Positions 50,574-63,818 of a DNA stretch of 64,000 bases are shown here, piece by piece. How positions within the stretch are numbered: position 1 is the stretch's first letter; each line of letters starts with the position of its first letter. The stretch covers positions 19,587-83,586 of the forward strand of contig JAFGCD010000138.1 of the NCBI GenBank assembly GCA_016932835.1, given 5' to 3'. The translations under genes were made by a program, and so were the position numbers. The stretch is from Sedimentisphaerales bacterium (GTDB lineage Bacteria; Planctomycetota; Phycisphaerae; Sedimentisphaerales; Anaerobacaceae). A model generated the notes under the pieces. It had not been told where the DNA came from. It ran no database searches and worked only from the letters and a program-made list of their open reading frames with translations.

Positions 50574-53500
50574 ATGGTGAACACTCTCAATGACCTATCC
50601 GATCAGGGGAACTTCTATCCGTCTGCCGTTCAGTTTACGGCTTCGATCAAGCAACCTGGCAGGCCCGCACAAAATGCCCGTCTGCAACCAAGGGCGCTAA
50701 TCGCACTGTTGTCGTTGCTGGTTCTCTTCGGGGTCTTCGTCTGCCCGGCCGGGGCTCAGCCGAGACCCTTGCTGGTCTATGCCGCTGCGGCACTTCTCGG
50801 CGATACGACCGAACCGTTTGACGTCACAACTCCATCCGATGCTCTCGTTCCTGTGCCAAGCGACGGCGATTGGCCTGATAACGAGACGCCCTGGATGGCA
50901 ATCGACGATAATGTCGGCACCAAATACCTGAACTTCAGAGGCAACACTCAGCCGACCGGTATTCGAGTTACACCCTCGACACCAGGGTCAATCGTCAGGG
51001 GGCTTTCGTTCACGACGGCCAATGATTCTCCGGAGCGTGATCCTGTCGCCTATGAACTCTACGGATCCAACACCAGTATCAACGGGCCGTACACCGAAGA
51101 CAACCTGATCCACAGAGGCGAAATAGCGGACTTCAAACAAGCTGTTTCCTGGCCCCGAGATGCGAAAAATAACACGCCTATACAGTTCCCGAACAACACT
51201 GCGTACGCTCATTATCAGTTGTTGATTACGGAGGTCCGGGACCCGGGCAGCGCAAACAGTATGCAAGTCGCCGAGATCGAGTTGCTCGGAGGCCCGTCGG
51301 GCGGCTGGCCCCCCGCAGTCGATGCCGGCGACGACAGAATCGTTATCCTGCCGAATACTACCGTCAAACTGGACGCGAGCGTGGAATACTTCGGAGATTA
51401 TCCGGAACTGCTTACGATGCAATGGTCTATTGAAAGCTGGCCGAGCGGTGTGGAAGCCGAAGACGTGGTCTTTGAGCCGAATGAATTCGTCGAAGACCCG
51501 ACCGTGGAATTGCCTCCGGTTCCAGGCCCCTATATACTCAAACTCTACGCAACGGACGGAGAAGCCGAATCATCCGATTTGGTGCACATAGCAATTGTCG
51601 AATCGATGTGTCCCGTAGGGAATTTGAATGACGACTGCGCGGTCAATGGGTCGGATCTGCTGATCATGGCGGATAACTGGCTGGTCGATTCGGGTTCGGC
51701 CGGAGGCCCCCTCGGCGATCTGAACGGTAAGGACGGCGTCGAGATGACCGACTTTACGCTGCTGGCGGAGAACTGGAAAGACGAAGGCCCCCAGGTCGTC
51801 ATAAATGAGTTCATGGCTCTCAACGACAGCAAATATCCGCTCGAAGCAGGAGAAATCCTCGACGAAAACGGTGACTCATCCGACTGGATCGAACTGCACA
51901 ACACCACAGGCATAGCCATATCGCTAAAAGGGTGGTACCTAACCAACGATCCCGGCGACCTGACGGGATGGGAGTTCCAGGATGTGGTGCTCGAACCTGA
52001 TGAGTATCTGGTTGTTTTCGCTTCGGGCAAGGATCGTGACGATCCTGAAGGCGAACTGCATACCGATTTCAATCTCAGCGGCGATGCCGGTTATCTTGCC
52101 TTGGTTAAGCCTGACGGTATCACCATCGCGCATTCGTATGACTATCCGCAGCAGTTCCCCGCCATCTCATACGGTCTTGCCGCACCGGGCGGTTCCACCT
52201 ATACCGACGAGGAACTGATCAGCGAAAATGCCCAGGCCTACGCATTGATACCCCAGAACGATTCCCTCGGGACCACATGGATACAGCCCGGCTTCACACC
52301 TTCGGGCTGGAAGGAAGGACGAACCGGCATCGGCTACGATTACCCGGGCCTGGTGGGCCTCGACGTCGCCGAAATGCGTTACGACAACCGGACGGTTTAT
52401 ATTCGCATCCCGTTTGAAATCTCGGACCTTACCGGTCTGCGAGACCTGGTTCTGCAGATGAAATACGACGACGGCTTTATCGCATACATCAACGGCAATC
52501 CTCGCGCCGCAGGAGCCAACGACCCGGTCAGCCCAACCTGGAATTCCGGCGCCGAATTCGGCCACGACGACAGCCTGGCAGTCAACTTCGTCGATTTTCC
52601 GCTTCCGGAAGAACACCTTGCCGAGCTGCAAATCGGGCAGAATGTCCTTGCCATACACGGCTTGAATTACCTCGTAAACAGTTCCGATCTTTTGATTACG
52701 CCCCGTCTAACCGCCCGGCGTTACGGCAGCAGCAGTATCGGCTCGCTTGCCCAGGGCTTCTTTCGAGACCCCACACCGGGCTATTCCAATGCCGGAGGCA
52801 TCGCCAACCTCGGCCCTGCCGTCCGCAACGTGACAGAAAATCCCATCCCGCCCAACGAGAGCACAAACCTGGTAATATCCGCCCAGGTATCACAGACCTA
52901 CGACCCGGTTGCATCCGTAACTCTGCACTATCGCATCGGTTTCGGATCCGAAGCCGAGGTCGCAATGATTGACAACGGCGTCTATCCGGATACGCTGTCG
53001 GGCGACGGCGTTTACGCCGCCGTCATCCCGGCGTCGGCATATTCGGCGGGCGATATGGTACGATGGTACGTCACGGCGGTGGACAGCGGCTCAGTAACCA
53101 CACGCGAGCCGATGTTCCTCGATCCGCTCGCCTCGCCCGAGTATTTCGGCACAGTCATATTCGATCCGGGTATAATCACAGCGATGCAGGTATTCCAGTA
53201 TTTCGTCCAGAATGTCTCGGCAGCAGGCACACGAACAGGCACTCGCTGCTCGGTCTTCTTCCTCAACGAATTTTACGATAATGTTTTCATTCGTCTGCGT
53301 GGCGCCAATACGACCCACGGGCGGAAATTCGAATTCAACGACGGTCACCACTTCCGTTTCGACCCGAGCATCCCGCGAGTCGATGAGATTAACCTGAACG
53401 AAAGAGGAGCGGATTCGACCTCGCTTCGGCAGCCCCTGGCATGGGAGACGTATTACAATGCCGATGTCCCGGCGTCGCTTTCTTTCCCCCTGCACGTGCG

Positions 53501-56210
53501 GCGCAACGGCAGTTACCTCGCCGTGAGGATTTTTGTAGAGCAGCCCGACCGGGACCTGCTCCGTCGTAACGATCTGGACCCCGACGGCGCGTTGTACAAG
53601 CTATACACGGACTTTACTCACGGGAACATAAGCGATGAGCAGGTTCCCCGCAAGAAGACCAGGCTGGATGAAGACCTGAGCGACCTTCAGGCCCTCGCCG
53701 ACGGCATCAATCCCTCCAATCCCAACCGCTTTACTTACATGTTCGACAACGTCAATATCCCGGCGATTATCGAATACTGGGCCTCAACGGTAATCATTCA
53801 CGATAACGACCAGACTCATAAGAACTATTACGGCTACCGCGACACCCGCGACCCCAGCAACAATCCCAACGGAACAAACGAATGGATGTATCTGCCATGG
53901 GATAAGGACCTTACCTTCGGAGTAACCGGCATCGACGACGATATGCCCGGCGACATACGCTCCCCCAGCCATCCGTTCTACGGCTGTTCGGAGCACCAGA
54001 AGATCGACTACAAGTGGAACGGCCTGATCGACGCTCTTTTCGATAATGCCGTAACACGCCAGATGTACCTGCGCCGCCTGCGAACGCTCATGGACGATTT
54101 GCTTCAGCCTCCGGGAACGCCCGCGATAGAACTCAAGTTCGAAAGACGCATCAACGAATTGAAGGCCGCAGCACAGCTTGAACTCGGAAGCACCACATGG
54201 AACAACGACGTAGAGTGGATTAAGAACACCTACATGGTAAGGCGGCGCCAGCATCTGTTCGTAAATCACAGCATCCACAACCCCGGCTACGACCAGAATG
54301 CCGGAATCCCGGACAGCCAGCCCGCAAGTCCGACGATCACTATCGGCTCAATCGACTACAATCCGGCCTCGTGGAACCAGGATGAAGAATATATTGAGCT
54401 GGTCAATCCCAATACCTATGCCGTGGACATCACCGGCTGGAAACTCGACGACGCCGTCGAGCACACCTTTGCACCGGGAACTGTGATCCCAGCAGGCAGC
54501 TCTATGTACGTCACCCCGGATGCATATTCGTTCCGCAACCGCTCGGCAAGCCCCACCGGCGGCCAGCAGAGATTTGTCCAGGGCAATTACAAAGGACATC
54601 TCTCCAGTTGGGGCGAAACAATCAATCTCTATAATGCAAACGACGACCTTGTGGACACGCTCACATATCCGGGTACGCCCAGCGACGCACAGCGATATCT
54701 CCGGATTACCGAAATCATGTATCACCCCGCCGATGCCGACACCAACAGCCCTTACAACGATGAAGATTTCGAATATATAGAACTCAGGAACATCGGCGAG
54801 ACGCCGCTTTCCCTGATTGGCGTGAAGTTTACCGATGGGATCGATTACAATCTGCCGAGCATCAGCCTGCCCGGCGGCGAACATCTGCTGGTCGTCAAAA
54901 ACATTGACGCATTCAACTCGCGATATTCCGCCCCCGGCGGCACGCTGATCGTAGGCCCATACGACGGACAGCTTTCCAACGGCGGCGAAAAAATAAGCCT
55001 CGATGACGCCACCAACAGCACCATCCTCGAATTCAGCTATTCGGACGGCTGGTTCGACGTCACCGACGGAAATGGTTTCTCGCTCACCGTCCGCGACGTC
55101 AACGACCCCAACCTCGAACAATGGGACAGCAAGAGCGGCTGGCGAACGAGCGTATATCCCGGAGGCTCCCCAGGCTGGGACGACAGCGGCCTTATCCCCC
55201 TGCCGGGAACAATCGTCATCAACGAGGTCCTTGCACACTCCCACGACGAGGCATCCGACTGGATAGAACTCTACAACACGACAAATCAAACCGTCGATAT
55301 CGGAGGATGGTTCATCACCGACAACGAATCCAATTTCATGAAGTATGAAATCGAAGAAGGCGCCGAGATCGGCCCGTACGGATATTTCGTCTTATACCAG
55401 GACCCCAATTTCGGCGATACCAACGACCCCGGAACACACGAGGCCTTCGCACTGAGCGAAAACGGAGAGACAGTCATCCTGCATGTCGGCGCAGGAGGTG
55501 AATTGATGGGTTTTATGGACGAGGAAAAATTCGACGCATCCGAAACAGGCGTAGCGTTCGGACGCTACCAGAAGAGCACCGGAACATACAACTTCGTGCC
55601 GATGGAAAGCAACACTCCCCGCGAGGAGAACGCCTATCCGAAAGTCGGCCCAATAGTCATAACGGAACTGATGTACCATCCGCCTGACCCATGCGCCGGC
55701 GACCCCGCTGAGTACGACGACGACGATTTCGAATACATCGAACTCCACAATATCACCGACTACCACATCACGCTGCAGGAATATGACGACAATCTCGGCA
55801 TATATGTCCCATGGCAGATAAAGGGAGTGAGCTTCACATTCCTGCCGGGAACGACAATACCCGCGCACGGTTATCTCGTGGTCGCGAGAAATCCGCTGGC
55901 GTTCATGTATCGCTACGGTTCTCTACCCGCAGGGATGCTCCACGGACCATGCGGAAAAATGCAGAATGACGGTGAGGAAATACAGCTCTCCAAACCCGGC
56001 GATGAAAATTTCGATACACCCGAAGTCGGAGACTACTATATGATTCGCGTGGATCGAGTAAACTACAGCGACGGCTCACATCCCGTCGGCGAGGACCCAT
56101 GGCCCATAGGTCCCGACGGATGGGGCTATTCCCTAACGCGAACCTGGCCCGAGCTCTACGGCAACGACCCCAACAACTGGACCTCGCAGACGCCCTCGCC
56201 CGGAGGATAA
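50574..56210 (+). CDS. Giant secreted CotH-kinase / lamin-tail-domain protein with discoidin-like and dockerin-like regions
   Basis: 1878 aa; CotH motif NDQTHKNYYGYRDTRDPSNNPNGTNEWMYLPWDKDLTFG; several LTD-like units (VINEFMALND..DWIELHNTTG, ITEIMYHPADADTN..DFEYIELRNIGE, VINEVLAHSHDEASDWIELYNTTN, ITELMYHPPDPC..DFEYIELHNITD); dockerin-like LNDDCAVNGSDLLIMADNWL...LNGKDGVEMTDFTLLAENW. Confidence 0.85.
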   Translation: MVNTLNDLSDQGNFYPSAVQFTASIKQPGRPAQNARLQPRALIALLSLLVLFGVFVCPAGAQPRPLLVYAAAALLGDTTEPFDVTTPSDALVPVPSDGDWPDNETPWMAIDDNVGTKYLNFRGNTQPTGIRVTPSTPGSIVRGLSFTTANDSPERDPVAYELYGSNTSINGPYTEDNLIHRGEIADFKQAVSWPRDAKNNTPIQFPNNTAYAHYQLLITEVRDPGSANSMQVAEIELLGGPSGGWPPAVDAGDDRIVILPNTTVKLDASVEYFGDYPELLTMQWSIESWPSGVEAEDVVFEPNEFVEDPTVELPPVPGPYILKLYATDGEAESSDLVHIAIVESMCPVGNLNDDCAVNGSDLLIMADNWLVDSGSAGGPLGDLNGKDGVEMTDFTLLAENWKDEGPQVVINEFMALNDSKYPLEAGEILDENGDSSDWIELHNTTGIAISLKGWYLTNDPGDLTGWEFQDVVLEPDEYLVVFASGKDRDDPEGELHTDFNLSGDAGYLALVKPDGITIAHSYDYPQQFPAISYGLAAPGGSTYTDEELISENAQAYALIPQNDSLGTTWIQPGFTPSGWKEGRTGIGYDYPGLVGLDVAEMRYDNRTVYIRIPFEISDLTGLRDLVLQMKYDDGFIAYINGNPRAAGANDPVSPTWNSGAEFGHDDSLAVNFVDFPLPEEHLAELQIGQNVLAIHGLNYLVNSSDLLITPRLTARRYGSSSIGSLAQGFFRDPTPGYSNAGGIANLGPAVRNVTENPIPPNESTNLVISAQVSQTYDPVASVTLHYRIGFGSEAEVAMIDNGVYPDTLSGDGVYAAVIPASAYSAGDMVRWYVTAVDSGSVTTREPMFLDPLASPEYFGTVIFDPGIITAMQVFQYFVQNVSAAGTRTGTRCSVFFLNEFYDNVFIRLRGANTTHGRKFEFNDGHHFRFDPSIPRVDEINLNERGADSTSLRQPLAWETYYNADVPASLSFPLHVRRNGSYLAVRIFVEQPDRDLLRRNDLDPDGALYKLYTDFTHGNISDEQVPRKKTRLDEDLSDLQALADGINPSNPNRFTYMFDNVNIPAIIEYWASTVIIHDNDQTHKNYYGYRDTRDPSNNPNGTNEWMYLPWDKDLTFGVTGIDDDMPGDIRSPSHPFYGCSEHQKIDYKWNGLIDALFDNAVTRQMYLRRLRTLMDDLLQPPGTPAIELKFERRINELKAAAQLELGSTTWNNDVEWIKNTYMVRRRQHLFVNHSIHNPGYDQNAGIPDSQPASPTITIGSIDYNPASWNQDEEYIELVNPNTYAVDITGWKLDDAVEHTFAPGTVIPAGSSMYVTPDAYSFRNRSASPTGGQQRFVQGNYKGHLSSWGETINLYNANDDLVDTLTYPGTPSDAQRYLRITEIMYHPADADTNSPYNDEDFEYIELRNIGETPLSLIGVKFTDGIDYNLPSISLPGGEHLLVVKNIDAFNSRYSAPGGTLIVGPYDGQLSNGGEKISLDDATNSTILEFSYSDGWFDVTDGNGFSLTVRDVNDPNLEQWDSKSGWRTSVYPGGSPGWDDSGLIPLPGTIVINEVLAHSHDEASDWIELYNTTNQTVDIGGWFITDNESNFMKYEIEEGAEIGPYGYFVLYQDPNFGDTNDPGTHEAFALSENGETVILHVGAGGELMGFMDEEKFDASETGVAFGRYQKSTGTYNFVPMESNTPREENAYPKVGPIVITELMYHPPDPCAGDPAEYDDDDFEYIELHNITDYHITLQEYDDNLGIYVPWQIKGVSFTFLPGTTIPAHGYLVVARNPLAFMYRYGSLPAGMLHGPCGKMQNDGEEIQLSKPGDENFDTPEVGDYYMIRVDRVNYSDGSHPVGEDPWPIGPDGWGYSLTRTWPELYGNDPNNWTSQTPSPGG

Positions 56211-56371: not shown

Positions 56372-56653
56372 CTACTTGTGGGGCTGGGGTTCCTTCTCTG
56401 GCTGTTCTTGTGCTACTTTCTCAGGTTTGGCTTTCACTGCTTTGCCGGCTTCTTCGGAGGGTGTTTCGCCGGCCTGCTCGGCAGCAGCCTTTTCACGCTG
56501 AATTGTATCGTATATTTCCCTGCGATGAACCGGAATTTCTCTCGGAGCAGTTATGCCCAGGCGGACTTTATCCCCCCGAACATCCACTATGGTGATCTCA
56601 ACATCGTCACCGATCATAATCGATTCATCTCGCTGTCTGCTAAGAACCAACAT
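56372..56653 (-). CDS. csrA: Carbon storage regulator CsrA with C-terminal extension
   Basis: [54 protein letters not shown] followed by a ~35-aa low-complexity tail. Confidence 0.95.
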
Positions 56654-59122: not shown

Positions 59123-59334
59123 CCGATTCTCGGCATCTATTGGCGATTTAAGACCACGACCGCCGCTGCTTATGCCGCTCGTCCGCATTTTTTCTTGAAA
59201 ATTTCCCGCCAATAAGATAGACTAATCCCCGCTGGCAGCGAGAATAGGGAGTGGACTTATGGACCTTCCTTCGACGCTCGCCGCCTTTGAAGTCCGCCTT
59301 CCCGGCGACAAGACTTTGAGAGGAAGATTAGGAA

Positions 59335-62300
59335 ATGAAAACGGGAGCAAATCCGACAATCGGCCGGGTGCTTTTGCCTCTGCTGTTTGTTCTTACTCCG
59401 CCCGTACTGTCACACGCCGGCCAGATTCCCTCGTCTCCTTACTGGAAAGAAGAGATTGTCTTTCCCGCCGAACCTTTTCGAGCCGGAGGCACGCTGTACG
59501 GCGAGCCGCGCTGGGTCAAGTTTACGATTCTCACCGAACCTTACGATCCGAACATCGTCTATTTCCAGGACTGCCGGGAATACAAATTCCACTACAATTT
59601 CGCCGCCGACCTCGTTACGCCGTTTCTCGGCATGACAACACAGCAGTTTGACGCCGCCACGCTGTACGCAACCGGCCAGCAGGGCATACTCGGAGCGGTT
59701 GTAATGCCCCCCGATACGGGCTGGCCTCCGCCTCCGGCTTATCCCGAATATGGAATCCAGTTTGTCCGGTGCGACCCATATACAAGAGAAGAAATCGTCG
59801 AATTATTTCAAACTGTTAAAGCGAGCGTGGTCGCCGATCCCGCCGTGCAGGTATTCTACTTCCCGACCTACGAGCAAACGCCTGTCGCCGAAGCCAACCG
59901 CGACTGGTTCGAGTCACAGGGTATTAGCATAAGTTCTTCTGCACGCTGGACACAGGGCAATGCCATCTACTCGGCAGGCTGGGCGATGGGGCGCCTCAAA
60001 TACTTCGAGGCCCATAACATCACCTACGCCTATCAGACAGGCCTGCTGGAGCCGAACGACATCCTGCTGACCGACGGCGTCACCGCCGAGGTCCCTCTCG
60101 TGGCAGGGATTATCTCGCTCGCCCCGTCAACGCCGAATTCACACGTCGCTATTCTCGCAAAAACCTACGGCGTGCCGTTTGTCCACCTGGCGGTATCCGA
60201 GGATATCGACCGTGCCTGGGAACTTCTGGGGCAAAGACTGGTGCTGCGGGCATTCGAGGGATGGGAGCAAACGGACGTTCGACTAATCCAAATCGAAGGC
60301 GTACTCGACGAGACGGCCATCGCAGAGATACTCGAGCTGAAAAGACCCGCCGACCTGGAAATAACACTCGTAGCCGCCTTCGGCGCATACAGCGCATCGA
60401 CCGACGGACTGGGACCTTCGGACGTCAACCACTTCGGAGGCAAGGCATCGAACTTCGGAATACTGCGGGCTGCAATCCCGGACAACTGTCCCGTTGCAGC
60501 GGCCGTTTCGTTCGATCTCTGGAATGAATTCCTCGACCAGAACCTCGCCACCGGCAAGACGCTGCGAGAGGATATCGCCGAACGCCTCAGCCCATACAGC
60601 TATCCCCCCTCGGACATGGCCGCACTGTCGAGCCGGTTAGGCTTCATCCGCAGCATGTTCACCGCCGACTATATTACCACCTTCACCCAGACGCAGAAGG
60701 ACGCCGTTATCGCCGCCCTTCAAGACCCGCAGTACGGCTTCGATCAGAACAGGAACATTCGCTTTCGAAGCTCCTCAAACGTCGAGGACAGCAACAACTT
60801 CACTGCAGCGGGCCTGTACGACAGCTACAGCGGCTGCCTGGCCGACGACCTCGACGGCGACACAGCGGGACCATGCCTCTGCGACCCGGAGGAGAACAAC
60901 GAAAGAGGCGTCTTCCGGGCGATACGCAAGGTATTTGCGAGCTTCTACAACGACAACGCATACCTCGAACGCCTGCTCCACGGAATCGATGAAAACACCG
61001 TGGGCATGGCAATCCTCGTACACCACTCCTTCCCCGACGAGATCGAGCTTGCCAACGGCGTCGCCACCCTTGAAAAGCAGTACAGCAGCAGTTGCAGCAT
61101 CAACATGGTGACCCAGGCCGGCGCCGTCTCGGTGGCCAATCCCGAAGACGGCTCTATTCCTGAAGAGGTTCGAACGTATTGCTCGGGTTCCAACGTGTAT
61201 CCCAACCTGGTCAGGCCGTCGAATCTTGTCCCCCTCGGTGCGACCGTGCTCCAATGGCAGGATGAATACGTAGCCCTGGCCGATCTTCTGGTCGCCGCCG
61301 CCGATGAGTTTGCCCGCATTACAGGCAAAACCCAATACACGCTTGATTTCGAATATAAGAAAGTCGCACCCGAAGGCAAGCTCGTCGTCAAGCAGATTCG
61401 CGAAATTCCACGGGCGGCTAATACGCCGAGCGTGCCGACTTTTCTTATCAGCGGATCTGTAGAATACTGCACATTCCAGGGTGAGTACGGGACGGTCTTC
61501 GCAGCCCACCGGCTCAAATCGCGATGGAGCTTCGATACGAAAAGTCTCTGGTTGTCCAGAGAGAACCTCGCCGAAACCTTATATACCGACGTAACGCTCG
61601 AATATAAAGACCGCAACCGCATCCGGACAATTGCAGGCAGAATCGACGAATGGCCCTTTGCCGGTCACAGCCTCGAAGACGAATACGAGGAACACTGGGT
61701 CAGGACGCTCGATTCATGGCTGATGCACCATTTGCCGAATCCAACGACTATTGCATTGAACACCACCCAGATACCCACCCTCGTCAAAACCGACGAAAAC
61801 CCCATATTAATCTATGCCGACCTGCCCGAACCGTATGTCCAGGCTGAATACGCCGAGCCTGTCCCGACCCGCGACTACACCGGCTACACAACTACGACCT
61901 CCGAGGCCGCCTCTCTCTGCCGGCGCCCGGAGCCTCAAGAAGGCGACCTTCTGCAGCATAGAAGTATGGAACTCGCAGAAGGATCCATCTTAATCGATAC
62001 CACATTCTACTGGCCTCCGGAACCCACGGGTATCGTGGCAGGTTATACCGCGCCGCTTGTTCGCTGGGTTGAGACGGTAATTACGGGCTATACAACCGAA
62101 CCGATCGTCCTCCAGGGCTGGTACTCCCAAACATATCGCCCCGAGCACCACAATTTCGCCGAGAACTTCATCTTCGAGCCTCAACTCGAACCCGGCATCT
62201 CACCGGCCATCCTCACCGAACTGCGAGCCAGGAATATTCGCATGATATACGTCTATGGACAACCTGTATGGAACGGCGAGGAATACTCATATGAAGCTGC

Positions 62301-62517
62301 GGAATTTGCAATATACGGTTTCGACGACAAGTCCTTCCTTGCAGCGGATATAGACGGCGATAAGGACGTGGACGGCATCGATTTCGCAAAATTCGGCTCC
62401 AACTGGAACCGGGCAGTCTGTGACGACTGCGACGGCGCCGATCTGACCGGAGACGGGTGCGTCACAGCAACCGATCTATGGGAGCTTGCGGCAACCTGGC
62501 TGGATGAAATAGAGTAG
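59335..62517 (+). CDS. Secreted PEP-synthase / water-dikinase-like protein with C-terminal dockerin-like repeats
   Basis: Signal peptide (RVLLPLLFVLTPPVLSHAG); phosphohistidine-domain-like PLVAGIISLAPSTPNSHVAILAKTYGVPFVHL; PPDK/PEPS N-terminal ATP-grasp-like FGGKASNFGILRAAIPDNCPVAAAVSFDLW, NIRFRSSSNVEDSNNFTAAGLYDSYSG, VGMAILVHHSFPDE; C-terminal DIDGDKDVDGIDFAKFGSNW...DLTGDGCVTATDLWELAATWL. Confidence 0.75.
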   Translation: MKTGANPTIGRVLLPLLFVLTPPVLSHAGQIPSSPYWKEEIVFPAEPFRAGGTLYGEPRWVKFTILTEPYDPNIVYFQDCREYKFHYNFAADLVTPFLGMTTQQFDAATLYATGQQGILGAVVMPPDTGWPPPPAYPEYGIQFVRCDPYTREEIVELFQTVKASVVADPAVQVFYFPTYEQTPVAEANRDWFESQGISISSSARWTQGNAIYSAGWAMGRLKYFEAHNITYAYQTGLLEPNDILLTDGVTAEVPLVAGIISLAPSTPNSHVAILAKTYGVPFVHLAVSEDIDRAWELLGQRLVLRAFEGWEQTDVRLIQIEGVLDETAIAEILELKRPADLEITLVAAFGAYSASTDGLGPSDVNHFGGKASNFGILRAAIPDNCPVAAAVSFDLWNEFLDQNLATGKTLREDIAERLSPYSYPPSDMAALSSRLGFIRSMFTADYITTFTQTQKDAVIAALQDPQYGFDQNRNIRFRSSSNVEDSNNFTAAGLYDSYSGCLADDLDGDTAGPCLCDPEENNERGVFRAIRKVFASFYNDNAYLERLLHGIDENTVGMAILVHHSFPDEIELANGVATLEKQYSSSCSINMVTQAGAVSVANPEDGSIPEEVRTYCSGSNVYPNLVRPSNLVPLGATVLQWQDEYVALADLLVAAADEFARITGKTQYTLDFEYKKVAPEGKLVVKQIREIPRAANTPSVPTFLISGSVEYCTFQGEYGTVFAAHRLKSRWSFDTKSLWLSRENLAETLYTDVTLEYKDRNRIRTIAGRIDEWPFAGHSLEDEYEEHWVRTLDSWLMHHLPNPTTIALNTTQIPTLVKTDENPILIYADLPEPYVQAEYAEPVPTRDYTGYTTTTSEAASLCRRPEPQEGDLLQHRSMELAEGSILIDTTFYWPPEPTGIVAGYTAPLVRWVETVITGYTTEPIVLQGWYSQTYRPEHHNFAENFIFEPQLEPGISPAILTELRARNIRMIYVYGQPVWNGEEYSYEAAEFAIYGFDDKSFLAADIDGDKDVDGIDFAKFGSNWNRAVCDDCDGADLTGDGCVTATDLWELAATWLDEIE

Positions 62518-62531
62518 CCTTACGCGAGATC

Positions 62532-63818
62532 TTACTCGGCATGGGTGGTCCCGGATGTCGCCTCGGCGGGCGTCTCCGCAGACTTACCTTTGGAATCAGC
62601 CGAACCTTTATTTCCATCCTGCTCAACGGATTTGCTCTCGACGCTGGCCGAACCGGTATCGCCGCTCGACGAATCACCCTCTGCCCCCTCGGCATCTTCG
62701 CCCTCGGCGTCTTCGCCGGACGTCTTGTGCCCGCCATCGACATAACAGCCGTGATTAACGACTGCATCCTCGCGAATATAATCCGTAATCTTCAGAAAAT
62801 GCTTGGCGGGAATCAGCCTCTTGTTCGGCTTATCTCCGAACACTATCTGAAGAATTTTCTTCCTCTGGGGTTCTCTCGGCTCGAATTCATATTCTATCTC
62901 GAAGCCGTACTCTTTAATCAGGTCAAAATTCGGCGCCGGATAGGAAACCGCTTCGGCCCCGGCGCACTCGGACAAGGCAGGAACCAGCCACGGAGTAATC
63001 ACCCCGTCGTCCATGCCTATATCGAAGTTCCTGGCCTTCATATCCATGAGAAACAGAAAATCACCGGAAAACCAAAGTCCCCGCACGCTGTTCGAGGCCT
63101 TTCTCGCCGTCCGCCCGGACTGTGGAACCAATGGCTTCAACTCCTGATTCAGCGCAATAGTGAACGCCTCGTCGAATTCATGCTCGGTGTCACGCAGCGC
63201 CTTGGCCGCAACGTATGTCCCGAAAAGATCCGAAAACGAATCCTCCCAGGCAAACGCCGATGGAAACTCCGGATATATGCCCGTGCTGCGGTAGCCGAAC
63301 CATGTGATTATCTCGTGCCACGCCCCGCCGATATACGCGAAATACTGCCCAAGGCTGACGGCGATGTCTTTTCTGATTCGATTCTTCTCATCGGCCGGCA
63401 AGTCTTTCCACCAATCCGGATACGTCAGTTTGACGTAGTGGCGAGAAGCCTCCTTGAGCCTGAATGAGAATTCCGTCTTGTCCTTGTTGAGCTGGTTGAG
63501 GATATTTGCGGTTGTATAGGCCGTCCAGTCCGCAGCCTTGCGAACGTGGGCAATATCAATATGGCCTGCTTTGCAGGTATATACTATGCCGTTCTTCTCC
63601 GTCCAGCCGTTGTAGTATCCGTGTCTGCCTATACTCTCCGCATCCAGAAACATCGTCCCTAAGGATGTGCTGGCATACCGGCCTACCCTGCCTCGCGGAG
63701 GCGCCATAACGCTCCCCCCTTCGAAACCCCCGCCATCGCAGCCGGCATGAAACAACAGGAAAAGACACGAGACAATCGTGACGGCTTTTTCCACATTGAC
63801 CTGATAAGTGTCTTTCAT
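62532..63818 (-). CDS. Exported protein resembling DUF4056, with acidic low-complexity C-terminal tail
   Basis: N-terminal export signal (AVTIVSCLFLLFHAGC); GRVGRYASTSLGTMFLDAESIGRHGYY, GIVYTCKAGHIDIAHVRKAADWTAY, AWHEIITWFGY; tail GEDAEGEDAEGAEGDSSSGD. Confidence 0.6.
   Translation of the reverse strand: MKDTYQVNVEKAVTIVSCLFLLFHAGCDGGGFEGGSVMAPPRGRVGRYASTSLGTMFLDAESIGRHGYYNGWTEKNGIVYTCKAGHIDIAHVRKAADWTAYTTANILNQLNKDKTEFSFRLKEASRHYVKLTYPDWWKDLPADEKNRIRKDIAVSLGQYFAYIGGAWHEIITWFGYRSTGIYPEFPSAFAWEDSFSDLFGTYVAAKALRDTEHEFDEAFTIALNQELKPLVPQSGRTARKASNSVRGLWFSGDFLFLMDMKARNFDIGMDDGVITPWLVPALSECAGAEAVSYPAPNFDLIKEYGFEIEYEFEPREPQRKKILQIVFGDKPNKRLIPAKHFLKITDYIREDAVVNHGCYVDGGHKTSGEDAEGEDAEGAEGDSSSGDTGSASVESKSVEQDGNKGSADSKGKSAETPAEATSGTTHAE

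Follow-up and report, generated by a model that had tools for sequence, protein, structure and literature searches.

A swivel-first, dikinase-like enzyme, probably exported, from a Sedimentisphaerales bacterium

Within a 64 000-nucleotide stretch of Sedimentisphaerales DNA (the window), an open reading frame at 59335–62517 on the plus strand encodes a 1060-residue protein, P0001, which is probably an exported and catalytically competent dikinase-like phosphotransferase that would pass phosphate from ATP to His270 and on to an extracytoplasmic acceptor. P0001 represents a real family of exported-looking, swivel-first dikinase-like enzymes that has no name; no Pfam or NCBIfam family covering its arrangement was found, and the open-licence literature searched held no description of the family or of exported dikinases. 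Its signal-peptide-like start is followed by a swivel domain with His270, an ATP-grasp domain, a C-terminal region and two dockerin/EF-hand-like repeats; all features of the gene are given in window coordinates on the plus strand. A Shine-Dalgarno-like GAGGAAG, read directly, lies 5' of the ATG (59320–59326). The gene has orthologues at 60–61% identity and is under purifying selection, with a dN/dS between two 88%-identical orthologues of 0.21 overall (about 0.2), 0.09 in the swivel and 0.09–0.22 across the N-terminal, swivel and ATP-grasp domains. Family copies listed in the genome search with the core profile are uninterrupted by stop codons. The initial annotation had already reported the reading frame and a candidate His270 at 60142–60144, and the position proved exact.

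PEP synthase and PPDK carry the ATP-grasp before the His domain; plant GWDs have the His domain before a C-terminal ATP-grasp. As first described, P0001 has the latter order, with a phosphohistidine swivel domain at residues 204–345 (59944–60369) and a PPDK_N-type ATP-grasp at residues 357–694 (60403–61416), and this order is kept in every full-length relative. The Pfam PPDK_N match (PF01326; residues 365–577, E = 4.9e-14) is above its cut-off, and PPDK_N is found in all 20 family members. Two other Pfam matches fall just under their cut-offs: PEP-utilizers (PF00391) at residues 246–283, with an E-value of 0.002 or, using the isolated region, 1.5e-4, and Dockerin_1 at residues 1004–1051, with an E-value of 8e-4 and 19.9 bits against a cut-off of 22.9. 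Both are backed by the relatives, because the family swivel profile aligns His270 on the catalytic His of PEP synthases and GWD-like proteins, and Dockerin_1 is matched by 9 of 20 relatives (best E = 4.9e-7). Predicted structures were unusable for fold assignment (pLDDT 27 for the full-length protein and 37 for the N-terminal domain), and searching the PDB with profiles of the swivel, N-terminal and C-terminal domains turned up no credible relative.

The residues expected of a working dikinase are in place. His270, the putative phosphate carrier, is invariant in 18 of 18 homologues, and K370, R478, S497, D671, E673, Q687 and R689 of the ATP-grasp lie at known ligand positions. In an alignment with Escherichia coli PpsA and Streptomyces RPH, six of these (K370, R478, S497, E673, Q687 and R689) correspond to RPH Lys22, Arg117, Thr136, Glu297, Gln309 and Arg311, and D671 aligns with the acidic residue two before Glu297. 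The position of RPH Thr136 is a conserved Ser (S497) in the family and that of D671 is either D or E across the 18 members, with K370, R478, N482, E484, D485, S497, E673, Q687 and R689 as invariant as His270, two Streptomyces proteins included. The ATP-grasp profile aligns with canonical dikinases at an E-value of 7e-27 (hhalign), and P0001 has both marks of the mechanistic dikinase class that combines ATP-grasp and phospho-His swivel, namely the ATP ligands and the swivel His. In RPH, Lys22 is required for activity, the Lys22Ala variant being inactive, and phosphate transfer is lost in Arg117Ala and Thr136Val (PMC4844700). Since RPH Glu297Ala remains active (PMC4844700), conservation of the Glu297 equivalent alone is weak evidence.

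These residues also bear on the suggestion, made in the initial annotation, of a catalytically repurposed fold. Such a protein would bind nucleotides or other ligands outside the cell, or hydrolyse scavenged ATP, without phosphorylating an acceptor. The scarcity of ATP outside the cytoplasm would suit it, and RPH variants that are unable to transfer phosphate still hydrolyse ATP (PMC4844700). Pure binding, however, needs neither the His nor the ATP ligands, which are invariant in the 18 homologues from many genera; because they are intact in all relatives, a dead or repurposed fold becomes less likely, and we consider it quite improbable.

Among known dikinases, GWD and PWD (GWD1_pHisD, PF22973) resemble P0001 in placing the swivel His before a C-terminal PPDK_N-type ATP-grasp, in a GAGLYDS-like motif in the ATP-grasp, and in the SH-type swivel, which as a profile is nearest to GWD swivels. 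By hhalign, the family swivel profile matched GWD-like swivels, a comparison set drawn from other genomes in the phylum, at an E-value of 1e-10 and PEP-synthase swivels at about 1.7e-4 to 2e-4, each time catalytic His on catalytic His; with only four sequences in the canonical PEP-synthase profile, this gap is indicative, not exact. The GWD signal comes mainly from distant members, because the swivels of five close members alone matched both sets about equally (1e-4). Some distant members also match GWD1_pHisD in Pfam, below the cut-off. P0001 differs from GWD and PWD in its N-terminal domain, in ATP-grasp motifs that follow the PEP-synthase order where GWD1-like proteins are permuted, and in an exported-looking start, an extra C-terminal domain and a dockerin-like tail. 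The GWD signature region, KLH..(T/G)P(D/E)D, occurs in 0 of 22 family members versus 8 of 8 GWD-like proteins. As this region is absent from all 22 and P0001 has no Pfam match to GWD1_pHisD, the protein, which would work like a GWD, is by its sequence not a GWD. In ATP-grasp trees the family forms one clan, distinct both from PEP synthase/RPH and from the GWD-like proteins; the Streptomyces proteins are nearest (82–90% support). The root of these trees is not fixed, and descent from GWD is therefore not claimed.

Of the 392 genomes from the phylum, 7 encode plant-like GWD homologues, with GWD1_pHisD scores up to 127 bits, a KLHNNTTPDD region and the motif FRSDSNGEDL. Their loci include L129:5579-12795 (G374), L130:4320-15123 (G354), L133:1618-8841 (G094), L134:6006-9563 (G032) and L137:5908-9465 (G343). 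They are often paired neighbours, one with the permuted GWD1 ATP-grasp order and its partner with the PEP-synthase order. The open-licence literature searched yielded no paper dealing with glucan, water dikinase in Planctomycetes.

An envelope or extracellular dikinase, as first proposed for P0001, is the most likely reading from sequence comparison; the accompanying idea that it may be polysaccharide-directed fared less well. In a narrower form of the preferred reading, P0001 would be a bacterial extracellular counterpart of GWD and PWD that solubilises or marks a polysaccharide. The domain order and the GWD-like swivel are consistent with this, as are the below-cut-off GWD1_pHisD matches of distant members and the paralogue's fusion to a beta-helix, which is a fold often seen in polysaccharide lyases. 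Pfam detected neither CBM20 or CBM45 starch-binding domains nor any other recognised carbohydrate-binding domain in P0001, however, and the missing signature region, an N-terminal domain with no similarity to GWD and the lack of a conserved gene neighbour also argue against it, as does the Streptomyces cousin, whose gene adjoins one for an ATP-grasp ligase and one for an MFS transporter, a setting reminiscent of small-molecule biosynthesis. We regard this form as unlikely, and naming a glycan as the acceptor would be a guess.

PEP synthase and PPDK share with P0001 the ATP-grasp and phospho-His swivel with equivalent residues, but P0001 has the reversed domain order and is predicted to be exported. 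Pfam found no PEP-utilizers_C barrel in P0001, and its equivalog scores are far under the cut-offs. Similar in logic are RPH and the two-component phenol-type dikinases (HpeHI, CreHI and PpsAB), which share the route from ATP to His to acceptor, the ATP ligands and a replaceable acceptor domain. The order in RPH (ATP-grasp, drug (RIF)-binding domain, His) nevertheless differs from that of P0001, which scores 14.5 bits against 999 for RIF_Ptrans_rph; no similarity in the acceptor domain was seen, and neither RPH nor HpeHI is described as exported. Since RPH and HpeHI show that the ATP-grasp/swivel pair can adopt new acceptor domains (PMC4844700, PMC12167813), another narrower form of the preferred reading is an exported protein or small-molecule dikinase acting by similar logic, for example on secreted metabolites or other surface proteins. 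The biosynthesis-like gene cluster of the Streptomyces cousin fits this form, yet no conserved transport or resistance genes lie beside the family genes examined, and FG-GAP and dockerin modules suggest surface or polymer contacts. We put it forward tentatively, as a possibility on the doubtful side.

The Streptomyces cousins, WP_331760287.1 and WP_142270066.1, are plasmid proteins annotated as ‘PEP/pyruvate-binding domain-containing protein’. They share the order of N-terminal domain, swivel and ATP-grasp, together with His86, His270 and the ATP ligands, but are without the signal peptide, C-terminal domain, dockerin and Cys insert. On both plasmids (L048:4382-9062 and L049:4163-8990), an ATP-grasp protein, the swivel-first cousin and an MFS transporter are encoded consecutively, resembling a small biosynthetic cluster.

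The N-terminal domain of P0001 (residues 40–203; 59452–59943) is common to all full-length members, the two signal-less Streptomyces proteins among them. In the family alignment, His86 (59590–59592) is invariant, as is Gly120. The domain has no Pfam or PDB relative, and its matches in the six genomes searched are confined to family genes, of which one, lying at the edge of a contig, is a fragment. Minimal members have little beyond this N-terminal domain, the swivel and the ATP-grasp, so the N-terminal domain is probably the best candidate for acceptor binding. The C-terminal domain (residues 697–1000; 61423–62334) is family-specific, with a YxxxxHN motif (Y934, H939 and N940); it has no credible PDB or Pfam relative, and none was found outside the family in the six genomes. 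Members that have it (18 of 18) also carry a Cys-flanked acidic insert within the ATP-grasp, in P0001 CLADDLDGDTAGPCLC (residues 501–516; 60835–60882), which is a candidate disulfide and Ca2+ loop. Minimal members are without it; overall the insert occurs in 18 of 22 relatives and is missing in L041–L044 and the Streptomyces proteins (L048/L049). The conserved insert would fit an oxidising compartment. The dockerin-like tail seen in the initial annotation consists of the two repeats DIDGDKDVDGIDFAKF and DLTGDGCVTATDLWEL (62344–62508). A cellulosome reading of this tail is not supported, because no cohesin (PF00963) is detectable in the 93%-complete genome.

Export, also part of the first description, is supported from several sides. 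The N-terminus, MKTGANPTIGR-VLLPLLFVLTPPVL-SHA (59335–59418), combines a short run of basic residues with a hydrophobic segment and a cleavage site resembling SHA|G, and it is positive by a signal-peptide heuristic that is weak, as 57 of 198 neighbouring background ORFs (29%) pass too. Relatives carry N-terminal fusions to FG-GAP repeats (E-values to 5e-101), P_proprotein (P-domain) or Beta_helix; FG-GAP repeats and the P-domain are modules of extracellular proteins. These fusions and the dockerin-like tail lend more support to the predicted export than the heuristic does. Were the signal peptide misread, P0001 would be cytoplasmic, in line with the signal-less Streptomyces cousins and the weakness of the heuristic. 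The modules fused to relatives, the dockerin-like tail, the conserved Cys pair and the lipobox-like LTAC start of the paralogue all stand against this, making it very improbable. We know of no ATP source outside the cytoplasm, which counts against an exported dikinase.

With the core profile, members of the family turned up in 20 of the 392 genomes sampled from the phylum, which to judge by the Phycisphaerae orthologues is probably Planctomycetota, and in 14 of 267 genera. The distribution of the family is patchy, as it is missing from all ten genomes listed from the same order. The close orthologues are in two contigs titled Phycisphaerae bacterium, a 48% relative is in genome G135, and distant relatives (28–31%) are multi-copy within one class of the phylum. 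The 57%-identical paralogue lies on another contig of the same genome (G000:C49:15666-18668; L045:8161-12762), its dikinase-like core placed behind a right-handed beta-helix (E = 4e-21). Viral contigs scanned with two profiles had no relatives. Other PPDK_N genes exist separately in the genome of P0001. One 874-residue ORF (G000:C75:15191-16315; L095) has a strong PPDK_N match and is perhaps not an ordinary PEP synthase, because it fits poorly with PEP synthases in a tree (branch 5.18).

The close relatives share no conserved gene neighbour; the exception is a short ORF present in the near-identical contigs L009 and L010. Upstream in the window, positions 50574–56210 encode an 1878-residue exported-looking protein with a CotH kinase domain, five lamin-tail domains and a weak dockerin repeat. 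CotH was rejected as a conserved neighbour; it is matched 9 times in this genome and 62 times in G064. On the minus strand at 56372–56653 is CsrA (E = 3e-25) with a Lys/Glu/Pro-rich C-terminal extension, and at 62532–63818 a convergent gene encodes a DUF4056 protein (E = 2e-29) with a lipobox-like start and an acidic repetitive tail.

By analogy with RPH, HpeHI and GWD, the last serving as mechanistic analogue for the route from ATP through His to acceptor (PMC12892837), the ATP-grasp of P0001 would bind ATP, the swivel would dock and His270 accept the beta-phosphate, and AMP and Pi would be released. The swivel may then move to an acceptor site, whose likeliest location is the N-terminal domain with its invariant His86, and an extracytoplasmic acceptor would be phosphorylated there from His270. 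The C-terminal domain and the Ca2+-type dockerin-like tail could locate the enzyme on the surface or in a complex. More speculatively, the family may be extracytoplasmic dikinases whose own acceptor domain serves to phosphorylate a surface or extracellular polymer; this possible but far from favored proposal implies an ATP supply outside the cytoplasm or use of environmental ATP.

ATP-grasp/phospho-His dikinases are otherwise cytoplasmic or plastid enzymes, and few extracytoplasmic kinases are known. If P0001 is active, this dikinase class would reach the cell envelope or beyond, beside those few, and whether these bacteria use ATP outside the cytoplasm would become testable with a single purified enzyme. 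The family would also show one more way of providing the swivel mechanism with an acceptor domain, and its GWD-like swivel is relevant to the origin of the plant starch dikinases.
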